Of a stretch of 23,356 nucleotides of DNA, positions 4,508-22,229 are shown one piece after another. A model generated the notes under the pieces. That model was not told the origin of the DNA. It ran no database searches and saw only the letters and a program-made list of their open reading frames with translations. Source of the DNA: a virus. The position numbers and the translations under genes are program-made. Numbering within the stretch: the stretch's first letter is position 1; each line of letters opens with the position of its first letter. The DNA is taken from the IMG/VR virus record IMGVR_UViG_3300046314_000579, positions 1 to 23,356 of that record. One strand, 5' to 3'.

Positions 4508-4521
4508 AGATATAACTAATC

Positions 4522-4547
4522 CCCCGAGTATTTTTCGGGGTATTTTT
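4522..4547 (+). promoter_or_regulatory. 5'-leader hairpin with U-tract after P2
   Basis: CCCCGA (4522-4527) pairs with TCGGGG (4535-4540) around a 7-base loop, followed by TATTTTT (4541-4547). By shape this is an intrinsic terminator, yet it begins about 8 bases into the predicted P2 transcript and 31 bases before the start codon at 4553. It may stop read-through from the P1 group, act as an attenuator, or protect the 5' end. Confidence 0.55.
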
Positions 4548-14496: not shown

Positions 14497-16101
14497 ATGG
14501 AACTCAAACAACGTGTAGAACTCCTTGCTAAAGCTAAGAAAGAGCCTAAGTTACAGGCAATAGAGATAGAGATGTGCAAAAGAGATCCAATATACTTTTT
14601 CAACACCTATCTTAATACTGATAAGAACAAGACTCTTTTTAGTGACGATACACCTGATGTACTTCCTTTTATCCTTTTTCCTTTTCAGGAAGAGTATGTA
14701 ACAGAGGTATGGAGAAGTATAACACAGGCAAATATTCCAGTAGAGGAAAGAGATATTGACGAACTAACAAATGTATTTGTAGAGAAATCCCGCCAAATGG
14801 GCTTGAGTTGGCTTACTTGTGGTCTTTTTCTGTATGGATTCATATTCCATCACCATAAGTACACTATAATCTCTCGAACTGCTGACGAGGTAGACAAGCT
14901 CGGAGATATGGACTCTATGTTCGAGAAAATTCGCTTTATGATACGCAACTTGCCAACATGGATGCTTCCTAAGTGATTTTCTCGTGAGATGAGTAAGGAT
15001 AGGACAAATGCGTACATGAATATCAGTGATCCGAACACACAAGCAAGTATCACAGGGAAAACCGCAAATCCTGACGCTGGACGTGGTGGAACTCGAAATG
15101 CTATCTTTATGGATGAGATGGCTTTTATGCAACACGCAAGTGCTATAAATAAGGCTGCAACCTCGAATACCTCTTGTGTTATCTATAACAGCACACCAAA
15201 TGGCGAAGGTAATGAGTTCTACAGAATGCGTAAGCTCACTATGGAAAGACGAACGGCAGACTGAAAGATCCTCAAGCCTGAGATCAAGTGACTCCGCTAT
15301 CACTGGACAGAACATCCAATGTATGATCAGAACTGGTACGAGAATAAGATTAAAGGAAAGAGTAAAGAGACCATAGCACAGGAGTACGAAATCGACTACA
15401 ACACCGCTATCGTATGACGTGTATACGAGTGATTCCCTAAAGATCCTATGGTACTCGTCTATGATCCGAATAAGCCTCTCTATATAGCAATGGACAATAG
15501 TCACGGAGGAAAAGATCCGTTCGCTATTATTGTTGCACAGCCTGATGGTGCATACTGGAATATAATTGACTACCTAGAAATGAATGCTACTCCTGAAAAT
15601 ATGGCATCATTTTTGACTTGCAATCCAAAGTGAATACTAGAAACGCATCATCATAACTTCCTCGAACGATATAGAAACTATAACTGGCAGAGAGCAACAT
15701 TTATAAGTGATCCGTATGATACAAAATCTGCAATGGGGAATAGTACGATTCTCGAAGACTTCCGAAAATTAGGGATAAATCTCATGCTTCCACAAGAACG
15801 AGACAAAATAGAACAAATACTAACTACTCGAACAAACATATATCGTATTAGATATAATGATAACTGTCTCGATTTTGCATCTGCTATAATGAATGCTCGC
15901 TATCCTGAAAGAAGTGAAACAAGCCAGTCTACAAGTGTACAGAATAAGCCGATTCATGATTGGACGAGCCATGCTAGAACTGCACTAGAATATCTATTCC
16001 AGTATACAAAAGAAAACCCTCTCATAAATAAGGAAAGAGTTGTACAAGATACTCGCCCAACTCGTAACTATTTGACTGGGGAACTCGTGTATCCTAAATA
16101 G
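14497..16101 (+). CDS. terL: Terminase large subunit (packaging ATPase-nuclease)
   Basis: Reads as 534 residues with six TGA-Gly codons. ATPase motifs: deviant Walker A KSRQMGLSW (97-105), Walker B AIFMDEM with D206-E207, and C-motif NSTPNG (231-236). Nuclease motifs: D333 in IAMDNSHGG, D405 in FISDPYDT, and HDWTSHARTALEYL (487-500). TGA falls at positions where the family has Gly, for example residue 160 (LPK-G-F) and the I-V-G-R-V-Y-E-G-F stretch. It cuts concatemers and pumps DNA into the procapsid through the portal. It starts 14 bases after the previous gene behind a C-rich leader (AATCCCCCTTCCCCCT), and its TAG stop overlaps the end of a convergent minus-strand gene by 8 bases. The portal gene follows only after the minus cassette. 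Confidence 0.95.
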
Positions 16102-16345
16102 GAAGTTTTCTATTTACTCGTGTTCAATCTTTCTGAATCTCTACGTAATCTATAAACCTCTTCGCAGGAATAAAGGTACGTTGTCATGTATATTTTCAAT
16201 CTCAATTAAAATATAAATAATCATATCAAAGAAGCTCATCTATTATATAAATAAATTGTTGGTCATCATAACAATTTATATCGTATTTTTTATATATACG
16301 CATTACTAGCTTTCTTGTAATGTATAGAAGTAGTTTATCAATCAT
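16094..16345 (-). CDS. Small unknown protein, third gene of minus-strand cassette
   Basis: Reading TGA as Gly gives an 83-residue protein from ATG at 16345 to TAG at 16094-16096, with five TGA codons. It begins MIDKLLLYITRKLVMRIYKK and has a Tyr/Asp/Gly-rich middle (YFNGDGKYTGQRTF) and a basic end. It is invisible in the standard code. It starts 12 bases after the stop of the gene before it, and its 3' end overlaps the terminase end by 8 bases tail-to-tail. The family is not recognised. Base content is far more AT-rich than the virion genes (9-10 G+C in the 60-base lines at 16201 and 16321), which suggests later acquisition. Confidence 0.7.
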
Positions 16346-16357
16346 ATATAAAAAAGG

Positions 16358-16528
16358 TTATTTAGATAAAATTATATTTTCAAAATCTATATCGTATGAA
16401 ATAGTAAATTCCTCATATATTTCTCATGGGTGTTCTTTAAAATGCTGAATAAATACAGTATCTAATCTTTCCAGATCAGATTTTAGTATATATACTTTCT
16501 TCTGAGTTAATTGCGGATTTATATACAT
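16358..16528 (-). CDS. Small unknown protein, second gene of minus-strand cassette
   Basis: ATG at 16528 opens 56 residues (MYINPQLTQKKVYILKSDLE at the start), acidic overall, with one TGA-Gly in EHPGEIYEE, and ends at TAA 16358-16360. It starts 11 bases after the stop of the zinc-ribbon gene and 12 bases before the next, so the three look like one operon. The first third is a probable helix, the rest a mixed charged segment ending DIDFENIILSK. No family is recognised. Confidence 0.65.
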
Positions 16529-16539
16529 ATATAACAAGA

Positions 16540-16797
16540 TTATTTAATTCAAACCAATAGATATAATACAGTAAATCAACATTTCTCACAAAAATCTATA
16601 TTATACGTAGGCTTATTTAATTCATTGTAAACATTTTCATTGTACTGTTTTATTCGTTTTTCTAAATCTTGTCATTGTGGCGTATTTCATGCAAATGGGA
16701 ATAAAGCACTTATAATAATATGCTCATAATCCTTTTTTTCTCCAATTTTTTCATATTTGAGTTTTCAGCAACATTGGCACTTATAGACTTTTTGCAT
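16540..16797 (-). CDS. Small zinc-ribbon protein, first gene of minus-strand cassette
   Basis: ATG at 16797 opens 85 residues ending in TAA at 16540-16542. Two CxxCG knuckles lie at residues 7-11 (CQCCG) and 70-74 (CEKCG), so a zinc ribbon with a helical insertion (about residues 40-62) is likely. The Gly after each second Cys is encoded by TGA, which is strong local support for UGA = Gly. Zinc ribbons of this size often bind nucleic acid or act as protein adaptors; no specific role can be given. It is the promoter-proximal gene of the cassette, with a leader of about 75-80 bases. A competing frame at 16710-16931 needs a GTG start lying in P3 and is less convincing. Confidence 0.75.
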
Positions 16798-19070: not shown

Positions 19071-19074
19071 ATAT

Positions 19075-19101
19075 TTGATTTTCCAATAATATCTGTATAC
19101 T
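19075..19101 (+). promoter_or_regulatory. Promoter P4 (TTGATT-N15-TATACT)
   Basis: TTGATT at 19075-19080, a 15-base spacer and TATACT at 19096-19101. The CCCCC tract is also present (19123-19127) but 22 bases after the -10 box, 8 more than at P1-P3. It drives the scaffold-capsid block through a long structured leader. Confidence 0.75.
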
Positions 19102-19107
19102 AGAATT

Positions 19108-19225
19108 GTTCCTTTAACATTTCCCCCATTATTGCTTGCTTTTTGTGAGTTGTGGTCGGGGGATCATAGCTCGCAGAAAGCAGACAGTAATGTTTGCTTT
19201 TTTACTTTTATCACCCCTTACCTAT
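19108..19225 (+). ncRNA. Structured 5' leader with two mutually exclusive folds
   Basis: The predicted leader is about 118 bases. Fold A: the 13-base arm 19137-19149 pairs with 19170-19182 (11 Watson-Crick pairs and two G-U). Its loop carries GGGGG (19158-19162), which can pair with CCCCC (19123-19127) upstream, giving a pseudoknot. Fold B: 19177-19185 pairs with 19192-19200 and is followed by T residues, forming a terminator. The arms share 19177-19182, so A and B cannot coexist. This is the layout of an attenuator or riboswitch, placed before the capsid assembly genes. The ligand or trigger is unknown; no known riboswitch class was recognised. Confidence 0.5.
19177..19203 (+). terminator. 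Conditional terminator in the P4 leader
   Basis: AAAGCAGAC (19177-19185) pairs with GTTTGCTTT (19192-19200) with one G-U and a 6-base loop, followed by more T (to 19203). It would stop transcription before the scaffold gene unless its 5' arm is held by the upstream stem. Confidence 0.55.
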
Positions 19226-19870
19226 ATGGAAGACAACGTGAATGGAGTACCAACAGAGGCTCCGAAAACGGATAACCCTCCTGAAAATCCTGAACTTGCA
19301 AAGCGTCACGCTGAACAAATGGCAGGTTCTATGGCTGAGGTCGCAAGACTTCGTGAAATCGCTGTAGATAGTGTCGCCAAAGCATCTGAAAAAGATGCAA
19401 GTGCATTTTTAGAGGTTCACTCTAAAGACCCAAAGCTTGCAAACGAGGTAGCTAAAAAACTCGGTTATTCCAGTGCTGATGAAGTGCTTAATCAAATCAA
19501 TAAGAAACCTGAAAAGGCAGAAGATGACTTTGAAACTAAGTACGCTCAAAAGCGTTCTGAAGAAAAACATGAGGAAGCTATCACAAAGGCTCAAAAGATT
19601 CTTGGAAAACTCCCTGAAGATCTCAGAGAAGAAGCGCAAGCATACTTCGATGATATAACAGAAGGAAAGAGACTTGATGAAGATAAGGCTCAAAAATTTG
19701 CAGAAATGGCAACTCTTTATGTGAATAAAGACAACCTTCGCGCTGGACTTCTCGATGACTCCCTTGCTATGCTTGGAAGTACATGAGTAGGAAAGTCGAA
19801 GAAAGTAACCGAAAAGGAACCACAATATGTAGTTCGTGACGGTAAAATGATCTTACTCTCTAATAATTAA
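19226..19870 (+). CDS. Capsid scaffolding protein (candidate)
   Basis: Reads as 214 residues with one TGA-Gly near the C-terminus (about 19784), ending in TAA. The start chosen is ATG at 19226 (MEDNVNGV), because the open frame upstream lies in the structured leader. It is highly charged, Ala/Glu/Lys rich and almost all helix, with a Pro-rich start (TDNPPENPELAKRH) and a basic C-terminus (GKSKKV, VVRDGK) that could contact the coat protein. Size, composition and position between portal and coat genes are those of a scaffolding protein. It acts inside the procapsid and leaves or is degraded later. No protease motif is seen. Confidence 0.65.
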
Positions 19871-21230: not shown

Positions 21231-22229
21231 ATGGCTATTCAAGTAAGCTCATATGAGCTGTCACAGATGACCGATCTCGTAGATCGCAGTTTTCTTGATG
21301 GACTCAAAACATTGCCTATGGTAATGAAAAATTCTGGAGTTGTTATTTTGGATACAATGCCAAAGAATTCTGGAGACTCTAAGCTTTTCGCTGAACGAGT
21401 CACAACTGACCAATACGCCTCTGTTCGTGATGAAGGTGCTGTAGCTGATGCTGGAGTTGTTCAGTACGGATATGAGAAGGTTGCTCAGGTATACACGATT
21501 GCTAAGACTATCGGTATCACTAAGCGTATGCGTGTAGCTGGTAAGGATCGCGCTATTCTTGACGAGATTACAAACCTCTCTGAAGTTTGTCCTAATACTC
21601 AGGAGCTCGACCTCTCTCACCGCCTCACTTTTGCATGGTCTACTTCATACAATTATAAGGGAACAACTCGTGATCTTACAACTGGTGACAACAAGGCTCT
21701 TATTGCAAATGATCATACCCTCACTGGTTCTGCTACTACTTACTCTAATCAGGTAACTGGTAACCCTGCATTCTCTAAGGGTGCACTCGAAATTGCTGAA
21801 AAGTCATTCGTAGAAGGATCATTCGACAATCTCGGTGTAAAAATCTCTGTAACTCCTTCAGTTCTCGTAACTACTGATGACCCAAATACAGTAAATGAGG
21901 TTCGCCAGCTTCTCAACGCTACTGCAGATGTAAACTCTGCTAACTCTGGTACGTCTAACGTATACAAGTCTAAGTACAAGCATGTTGCTAATCCACGTAT
22001 TGCTACTGACTCAAACGGAGGTGTTGATGCTACTAAGGCAAAATACTGGTTCCTCGCTTCTGAGCGTGCTTCTGACTTCTACATGTGTGAACTCGAAACT
22101 CCATATACAGAACTCATCAAGAGCAACGATTCAAGTGAAAACTGGAATTATCTTGCAGCTGCTACTTACCTTATCTCTATCGTAACTGGACGTTGGGTTC
22201 GCGGATCAAAGGGTGATGGCTCAGTTTAA
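21231..22229 (+). CDS. Major capsid protein
   Basis: A 332-residue frame with no TGA codon and all 22 Gly as GGN, the most conventional codon use in the window. Size, lack of low complexity and placement after portal, scaffold and decoration candidates fit an HK97-fold coat protein. The early helix (SQMTDLVDRSFLDGLKTL), the E-loop-like segment with RVTTDQYASVRDEG, the basic helix (IGITKRMRVAGKDRAILDE) and the C-terminal NYLAAATYLISIVTGRWVRG resemble Mu-type or related coat proteins. Function is inferred from context and fold pattern. It is expressed from P4. Confidence 0.75.
   Translation: MAIQVSSYELSQMTDLVDRSFLDGLKTLPMVMKNSGVVILDTMPKNSGDSKLFAERVTTDQYASVRDEGAVADAGVVQYGYEKVAQVYTIAKTIGITKRMRVAGKDRAILDEITNLSEVCPNTQELDLSHRLTFAWSTSYNYKGTTRDLTTGDNKALIANDHTLTGSATTYSNQVTGNPAFSKGALEIAEKSFVEGSFDNLGVKISVTPSVLVTTDDPNTVNEVRQLLNATADVNSANSGTSNVYKSKYKHVANPRIATDSNGGVDATKAKYWFLASERASDFYMCELETPYTELIKSNDSSENWNYLAAATYLISIVTGRWVRGSKGDGSV

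Follow-up and report, generated by a model that had tools for sequence, protein, structure and literature searches.

A candidate transcription attenuator upstream of the putative scaffold gene in a phage read with genetic code 25

Transcription attenuators of the trp and pyr type are placed before the first gene of an operon. An early hairpin frees a terminator, and an alternative antiterminator uses the 5' arm of that terminator. In phage lambda, the nut/Q systems use short repeated sites near the starts of phage transcripts, with terminators behind them. A candidate structured RNA, the Mu-gpT-DE motif, has been proposed before phage head-protein genes. The putRNA of phage HK022, which is about 70 nt long and consists of two adjacent stem-loops with related sequences, suppresses terminators up to 10 kb away (PMC9378689).

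The leader described here (leader 4) shares with the trp/pyr-type attenuators the early hairpin, the antiterminator built on the terminator's 5' arm and the position before an operon's first gene. Like putRNA, it would be a phage RNA close behind its promoter that affects termination, and the role proposed below for its 5' tag resembles that of the lambda sites. Judged by its predicted folds and their retention in relatives, leader 4 probably acts in cis to attenuate transcription of the scaffold/coat operon.

The record and its four leaders

In this study, IMG/VR record IMGVR_UViG_3300046314_000579 was analysed over its whole length of 23,356 bases (the window). Its long open reading frames are open only if TGA encodes a residue (genetic code 25), and the TGA codons of the terminase align with positions occupied by glycine in every relative (G160, G307). 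The terminase and the portal were identified by profile matches. The best explanation is that the window represents a phage of code-25 hosts of the Gracilibacteria/Absconditabacteria type. The first gene 3' of leader 4 (19226-19870, plus strand) is a code-25 ORF of 214 amino acids, with TGA read as Gly. It encodes a scaffold-like protein, and relatives with 36-44% identity are found at the equivalent place. Downstream, on the same strand as the leader, a coat-like gene (21231-22229, plus strand; 332 amino acids) has relatives in 38 viral loci. Neither protein matched PHROGs or Pfam; the coat was therefore named by position and conservation, and the putative scaffold takes its name from its conservation and its place before the coat gene. 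Small ORFs were also seen on the minus strand between the terminase and portal genes (16094-16797), one with a CxxC pattern (MQKVYKCQCCGK...); the two that were tested had no Pfam match.

A promoter of the form TTTGATTTTC ... TATAMT occurs in four copies in the window (351, 4480, 16918 and 19074), each followed by a C5 tract. The copy preceding leader 4 (19074-19101, plus strand) comprises TTTGATTTTC at 19074-19083 and a -10 box, TATACT, at 19096-19101, and its spacing suggests a transcription start at about 19108. Leader 4 then extends over 19108-19225, up to the scaffold gene. It is the only one of the four leaders with a long-hairpin insertion, in agreement with the earlier note: leaders 1 and 2 each form a simple C5/G4 hairpin followed by a T-rich tail, and leader 3 contains its C5 tract but no hairpin. 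All four leaders are retained in a circular relative, contig C75. The TCCCC/GGGG hairpins of leaders 1 and 2 (384-420 and 4513-4546), with T-rich tails, lie between promoter and gene, with equivalents in C75 at 19355 and 23789; they may be either terminator-like or 5' stabilising.

Alternative folds of leader 4 and their retention in relatives

Three structures were found in leader 4, all on the plus strand. P1, the proposed antiterminator (19127-19192), is a hairpin of 30 pairs, arranged as 8 + 22 around one 1x1 mismatch. Its energy is -41.4 kcal/mol (z -6.65), a value that 200 shuffles never reached, and it ranks first among the 9316 windows of 70 nt on both strands of the whole record, the runner-up being at -32.5. 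The outer part of the P1 3' arm is also the 5' arm of T, an intrinsic-terminator-like hairpin (19175-19202) with 12 pairs, a 4-nt loop and a T-tract at 19197-19202. The earlier note had described a 13-pair stem and a 9-pair terminator sharing 19177-19182; both hairpins and their exclusiveness hold, but both are longer than described and the shared segment is 19175-19186. The third structure, P0 (19122-19163; -20.3 kcal/mol, z -4.8), was found by folding the RNA as it emerges, which gave -21.1 kcal/mol. Here the 5' tag TCCCCC (19122-19127) closes on the anti-tag GGGGGA (19158-19163), and the 5' arm of P1 is folded back and trapped inside. The C5 (19123-19127) and G5 (19158-19162) tracts, the stem and the T-tract all lie where they had been placed previously. 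The complementarity of C5 and G5 is kept in relatives; the proposed pseudoknot between loop and upstream tract, however, is unnecessary, because the same pairing closes a nested alternative hairpin, P0, that excludes the stem.

According to the energy models, P1 is incompatible with both P0 and T, and P0 and T are compatible with each other. The combination of P0 and T (OFF) has an energy of -34.3 kcal/mol in the window, compared with -41.4 kcal/mol for P1 (ON), and the barrier from P0 to P1 was computed, by an approximate path method, to be about 17 kcal/mol. The terminator hairpin with its T-tract sits between the promoter (19074-19101) and the gene (19226). Promoter, hairpins and T-tract in this order are also what a stand-alone short RNA of about 95 nt would need, with scaffold expression resulting from read-through, and the OFF state would yield such an RNA. 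Yet a constitutive terminator would be poorly designed if its 5' arm were also claimed by a 30-pair hairpin. In addition, all relatives that possess the element carry it immediately 5' of the same gene, which indicates action in cis. We regard a stand-alone RNA as quite unlikely and an attenuator as the better reading.

Relatives were sought in IMG/VR and in genome contigs with the coat, portal, terminase, scaffold and decoration-like proteins. The genome contigs yielded a single relative, L018 (contig C75 of G001), with a portal 83% identical to that of the window. C75 carries a 92-base terminal repeat and therefore most likely represents the whole sequence of a circular phage, about 43.6 kb long. 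This contig (RXKB01000065.1), a circular code-25 phage, is deposited within a MAG named Candidatus Dependentiae; its placement in that genome is most likely a binning error. A phage collection gave neither a DNA relative nor a coat match, and the terminase matches there were distant.

Nearly all close relatives have a structured leader before the scaffold gene; the element is absent from L068 and L078, the leaders of L111 and L112 look different, and that of L110 is a long stem without a terminator. Two types were distinguished. Type A leaders (window, L018, L006, L007, L092 and L065) contain a tag, P1, an anti-tag in or adjoining the P1 loop, T and a T-tract. The five related phages of this type retain P0, P1 and T, four of them with largely different letters, and L018 also keeps the order of promoter, terminator hairpin and gene. 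The exclusive antiterminator that uses the terminator's 5' arm is likewise retained in relatives. Since the folds are kept despite such changes, it is very likely that the exclusive folds before the capsid genes are a real on/off switch. OFF and ON energies were -35.6 and -39.9 kcal/mol in L018, -25.0 and -29.3 in L006, -32.0 and -46.5 in L007, -23.1 and -29.7 in L092, and -28.1 and -35.6 in L065. The computed barriers from P0 to P1 across type A leaders were 14.5-20.9 kcal/mol. The P0 and T segments outscore shuffles in nearly every leader, with P0 cut at its pairing ends, which inflates its z-scores.

Type B leaders (L008/L012, L009, L010, L011, L101, L102 and L108) begin right after the upstream stop codon and have P1 and T without an upstream tag. 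When the P1 loop was compared with both flanks, type A loops were complementary to the upstream flank and that of L009 to the downstream flank; when L009 and L010 are folded, their G-rich strand pairs with a C-rich stretch immediately 5' of the ATG. A C-rich, G-poor stretch (such as ACCnAACCC or GACCCTATG) was observed directly before the scaffold ATG in L006-L012, L101, L102, L108 and L111, and it recurs where no Shine-Dalgarno sequence is seen.

The position of the type B leaders bears on ribosome-mediated attenuation, in which a ribosome on a leader ORF or at the end of the upstream gene would block the P1 5' arm. In L008-L011, P1 starts a few bases from the upstream stop codon, within a ribosome footprint, and the terminator loop contains an ATG that shares the scaffold reading frame in the window (19190), L018, L006 and L008. 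The window RNA, however, has no ATG from 19108 to 19189 (counting ATG starts only), which speaks against the translation signal that the earlier note had considered as one possible input, at least by way of a leader peptide. The in-frame extension is missing in L007, L009 and L011, and two of its codons change amino acids between the window and L018. Attenuation by a ribosome is very doubtful as the general explanation and may be limited to the subtype to which the window does not belong. Translation from the loop ATG (window 19190-19225; L006 4048; L008 8214; L018 7194) would lengthen the protein by 11-14 residues, most of them hydrophobic (MFAFLLLSPLTY in the window); the ATG was rejected as a leader-peptide start because it is absent from some relatives.

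Leaders with other features were observed among the more distant coat relatives, most of which use TGA as a stop. tRNA-like pieces occur in the leader before the decoration-like gene in L069 (4343-4489), L073 (3200-3396), L076 (3642-3893), L080 (4323-4567), L081 (4375-4540) and L082 (4337-4539). Some have CTCATAA at the anticodon place and some only an acceptor and T-arm, with GCAGAGAAGCGTAATCTCG-like hairpins and GTTAAAAA/GTTAACAA repeats behind them.

Compensatory changes among relatives, on which the earlier note had made its case depend, were found. Between the window and L018, four paired bases differ and no pair of P1 or T is broken. In P1, 19134 G>A is matched by 19185 C>T in a double compensatory change from G-C to A-U, and 19152 G>A turns G.U into A-U. 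In T, both differences (19185 C>T and 19194 T>C) are consistent. By comparison, a chance prediction of a helix in the upstream part of this leader had four of its ten pairs broken between the same two phages. When the changes were placed at random, all P1 pairs were kept and a compensatory pair arose with p 0.067, which makes this comparison weak when taken by itself. L101 and L102 differ in P1 by three double compensatory and two consistent changes with one broken pair (p about 0.002), and in T by one compensatory pair.

These changes also help in weighing a further reading, namely that P1, lying between portal and scaffold, serves RNase III-type processing or mRNA stabilisation and that the T-tract is incidental. 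In many relatives, P1 forms a nearly perfect helix of about 20-30 pairs, and duplexes like this are the kind that RNase III cuts in other phages; moreover, the leaders of L008-L011, directly 3' of a stop codon, have no obvious promoter of their own. Such a role would leave unexplained why P0 is retained, why T is built from the 3' arm of P1 and why the changes between the window and L018 preserve both P1 and T. We therefore consider it unlikely.

In a three-part search of 1.04 Mb on both strands, we required T, a P1 of at least 15 pairs sharing an arm with it, and a tag:anti-tag pairing of at least 6 pairs. The scaffold leaders of the window, C75, L006, L007 and L092 were matched (22-30 P1 pairs), as were four weaker places elsewhere; L065 was missed because its T-tract is poor. 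Leader 4 was the sole match within the window, and shuffled sequence gave no match. In a composition-preserving test, the complementarity of tag and loop had a combined p of 4e-4; for the window alone the value was 0.13, which is not significant. The compensatory changes and this search support the earlier description of leader 4 as an attenuator-like element that has two exclusive folds and precedes the capsid assembly genes.

The same logic of an exclusive terminator and antiterminator would suit a metabolite riboswitch, in which a small molecule chooses between P1 and T, and ligand dependence had been suggested for this leader. A ligand pocket would need a conserved sequence core, and none is present across the leaders; nor did any Rfam family reach its gathering score in the window or its relatives. 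In view of the missing core, a metabolite riboswitch is highly improbable. The matches obtained at a relaxed Rfam threshold were microRNA and ctRNA look-alikes only and were rejected as generic hairpin matches.

The shared tag and a proposed mechanism

The 5' tag of leader 4 (19122-19127, plus strand) is a C-rich strand common to other leaders of the phage as AATCCCCC. The plus strand of the window contains this sequence four times, where 0.09 copies are expected, and C75 contains it five times, where 0.17 are expected; as read in leader 4, the tag is TTTCCCCC in the window and AATCCCCC in C75. L092 has AAACCCACTA as the tag of its scaffold leader and of its portal leader. The loop of the scaffold leader contains the complementary TAGTGGGT; in the portal leader the tag lies just 3' of the -10 box without a matching strand, as in leader 3 of the window. 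Two more copies are present in the L092 record, each between a -10-like box and an ATG. Five different tag:anti-tag pairs were found among type A leaders (TCCCCC:GGGGGA, GTCTCCC:GGGAGAC, ACCCCC:GGGGGT, ACCCACTA:TAGTGGGT and AACCCGCTA:TAGCGGGTT). The tag is thus a property of the leader set of a phage, differing between phages as a set. Such a tag common to several leaders is unusual. Because it is common to the leaders of one phage and different between phages, a factor that reads the tag is proposed, although the tag might instead be a DNA element of the promoter.

In the proposed mechanism, a polymerase starting at about 19108 would make the tag first, then the P1 5' arm and then the anti-tag, and in this order P0 can form before P1. 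The computed barrier of about 17 kcal/mol is high relative to the roughly one second that the polymerase needs to reach the T-tract, which suggests that P0 acts as a trap. With P0 in place, the 3' arm of P1 would pair with 19191-19202, T would form and transcription would stop in the T-tract near 19200; we infer that this OFF state is the default. If the tag is occupied or P0 fails, the P1 arms would pair, T would be blocked and scaffold and coat would be transcribed. A trans-acting, tag-binding factor would open P0 and would likewise melt the terminator-like hairpin that tag and anti-tag form in leaders 1 and 2. P1 has the lowest energy of all folds, and equilibration of the RNA before the polymerase reaches the T-tract would make ON the default state. 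The leaders without an upstream tag (L008-L011, L101, L102 and L108) count against this explanation, as do L068 and L078, in which the element is absent.

A broader and more tentative possibility is a regulon, in which the transcripts of several operons carry the same 5' tag, the capsid leader adds an anti-tag that closes a kinetic folding trap, and a tag-reading phage or host factor opens all of them. Tag, anti-tag and factor specificity would then change together. An antiterminator was sought with Pfam in 24 early proteins from the circular relative and three proteins from the window (27 in all). No clear RNA-binding regulator was recognised among them; the matches were to HNH nucleases, Sak, RusA, methylase, amidase and HTH/LacI-like DNA-binding domains.

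Comparison with known systems

The lambda nut/Q systems resemble the proposed tag in being short repeated sites, but no N- or Q-like gene was recognised by Pfam among the proteins searched, and we know of no counterpart there of the internal anti-tag. Leader 4 does not fall under HK022 putRNA either: it is one 66-nt hairpin with alternative folds, it would compete with a terminator of the same leader, and its letters are not conserved. It differs from the Mu-gpT-DE motif in preceding a scaffold gene and in having no Rfam match at the gathering score.

Literature on phage capsid-gene attenuation and on RNase III leaders contained nothing matching. The principle of the switch is known, and no description of this switch in code-25 phages was found in the literature. 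If the proposal is true, leader 4 would be the first described head-gene attenuator in phages of code-25 CPR bacteria, among the literature found. Because its folding logic persists although most letters change, such elements escape ordinary RNA searches based on sequence. The common tag offers a concrete handle on a trans-acting regulator in these uncultivable phages.

The trp/pyr-type attenuators remain the closest in logic. Compared with them, leader 4 has an antiterminator of 20-30 pairs, would control phage head genes and, in the window, lacks the short leader ORF overlapping the first hairpin that marks the trp type (no ATG in 19108-19189); its early hairpin is closed by a tag common to several leaders, and its letters are not conserved between relatives.
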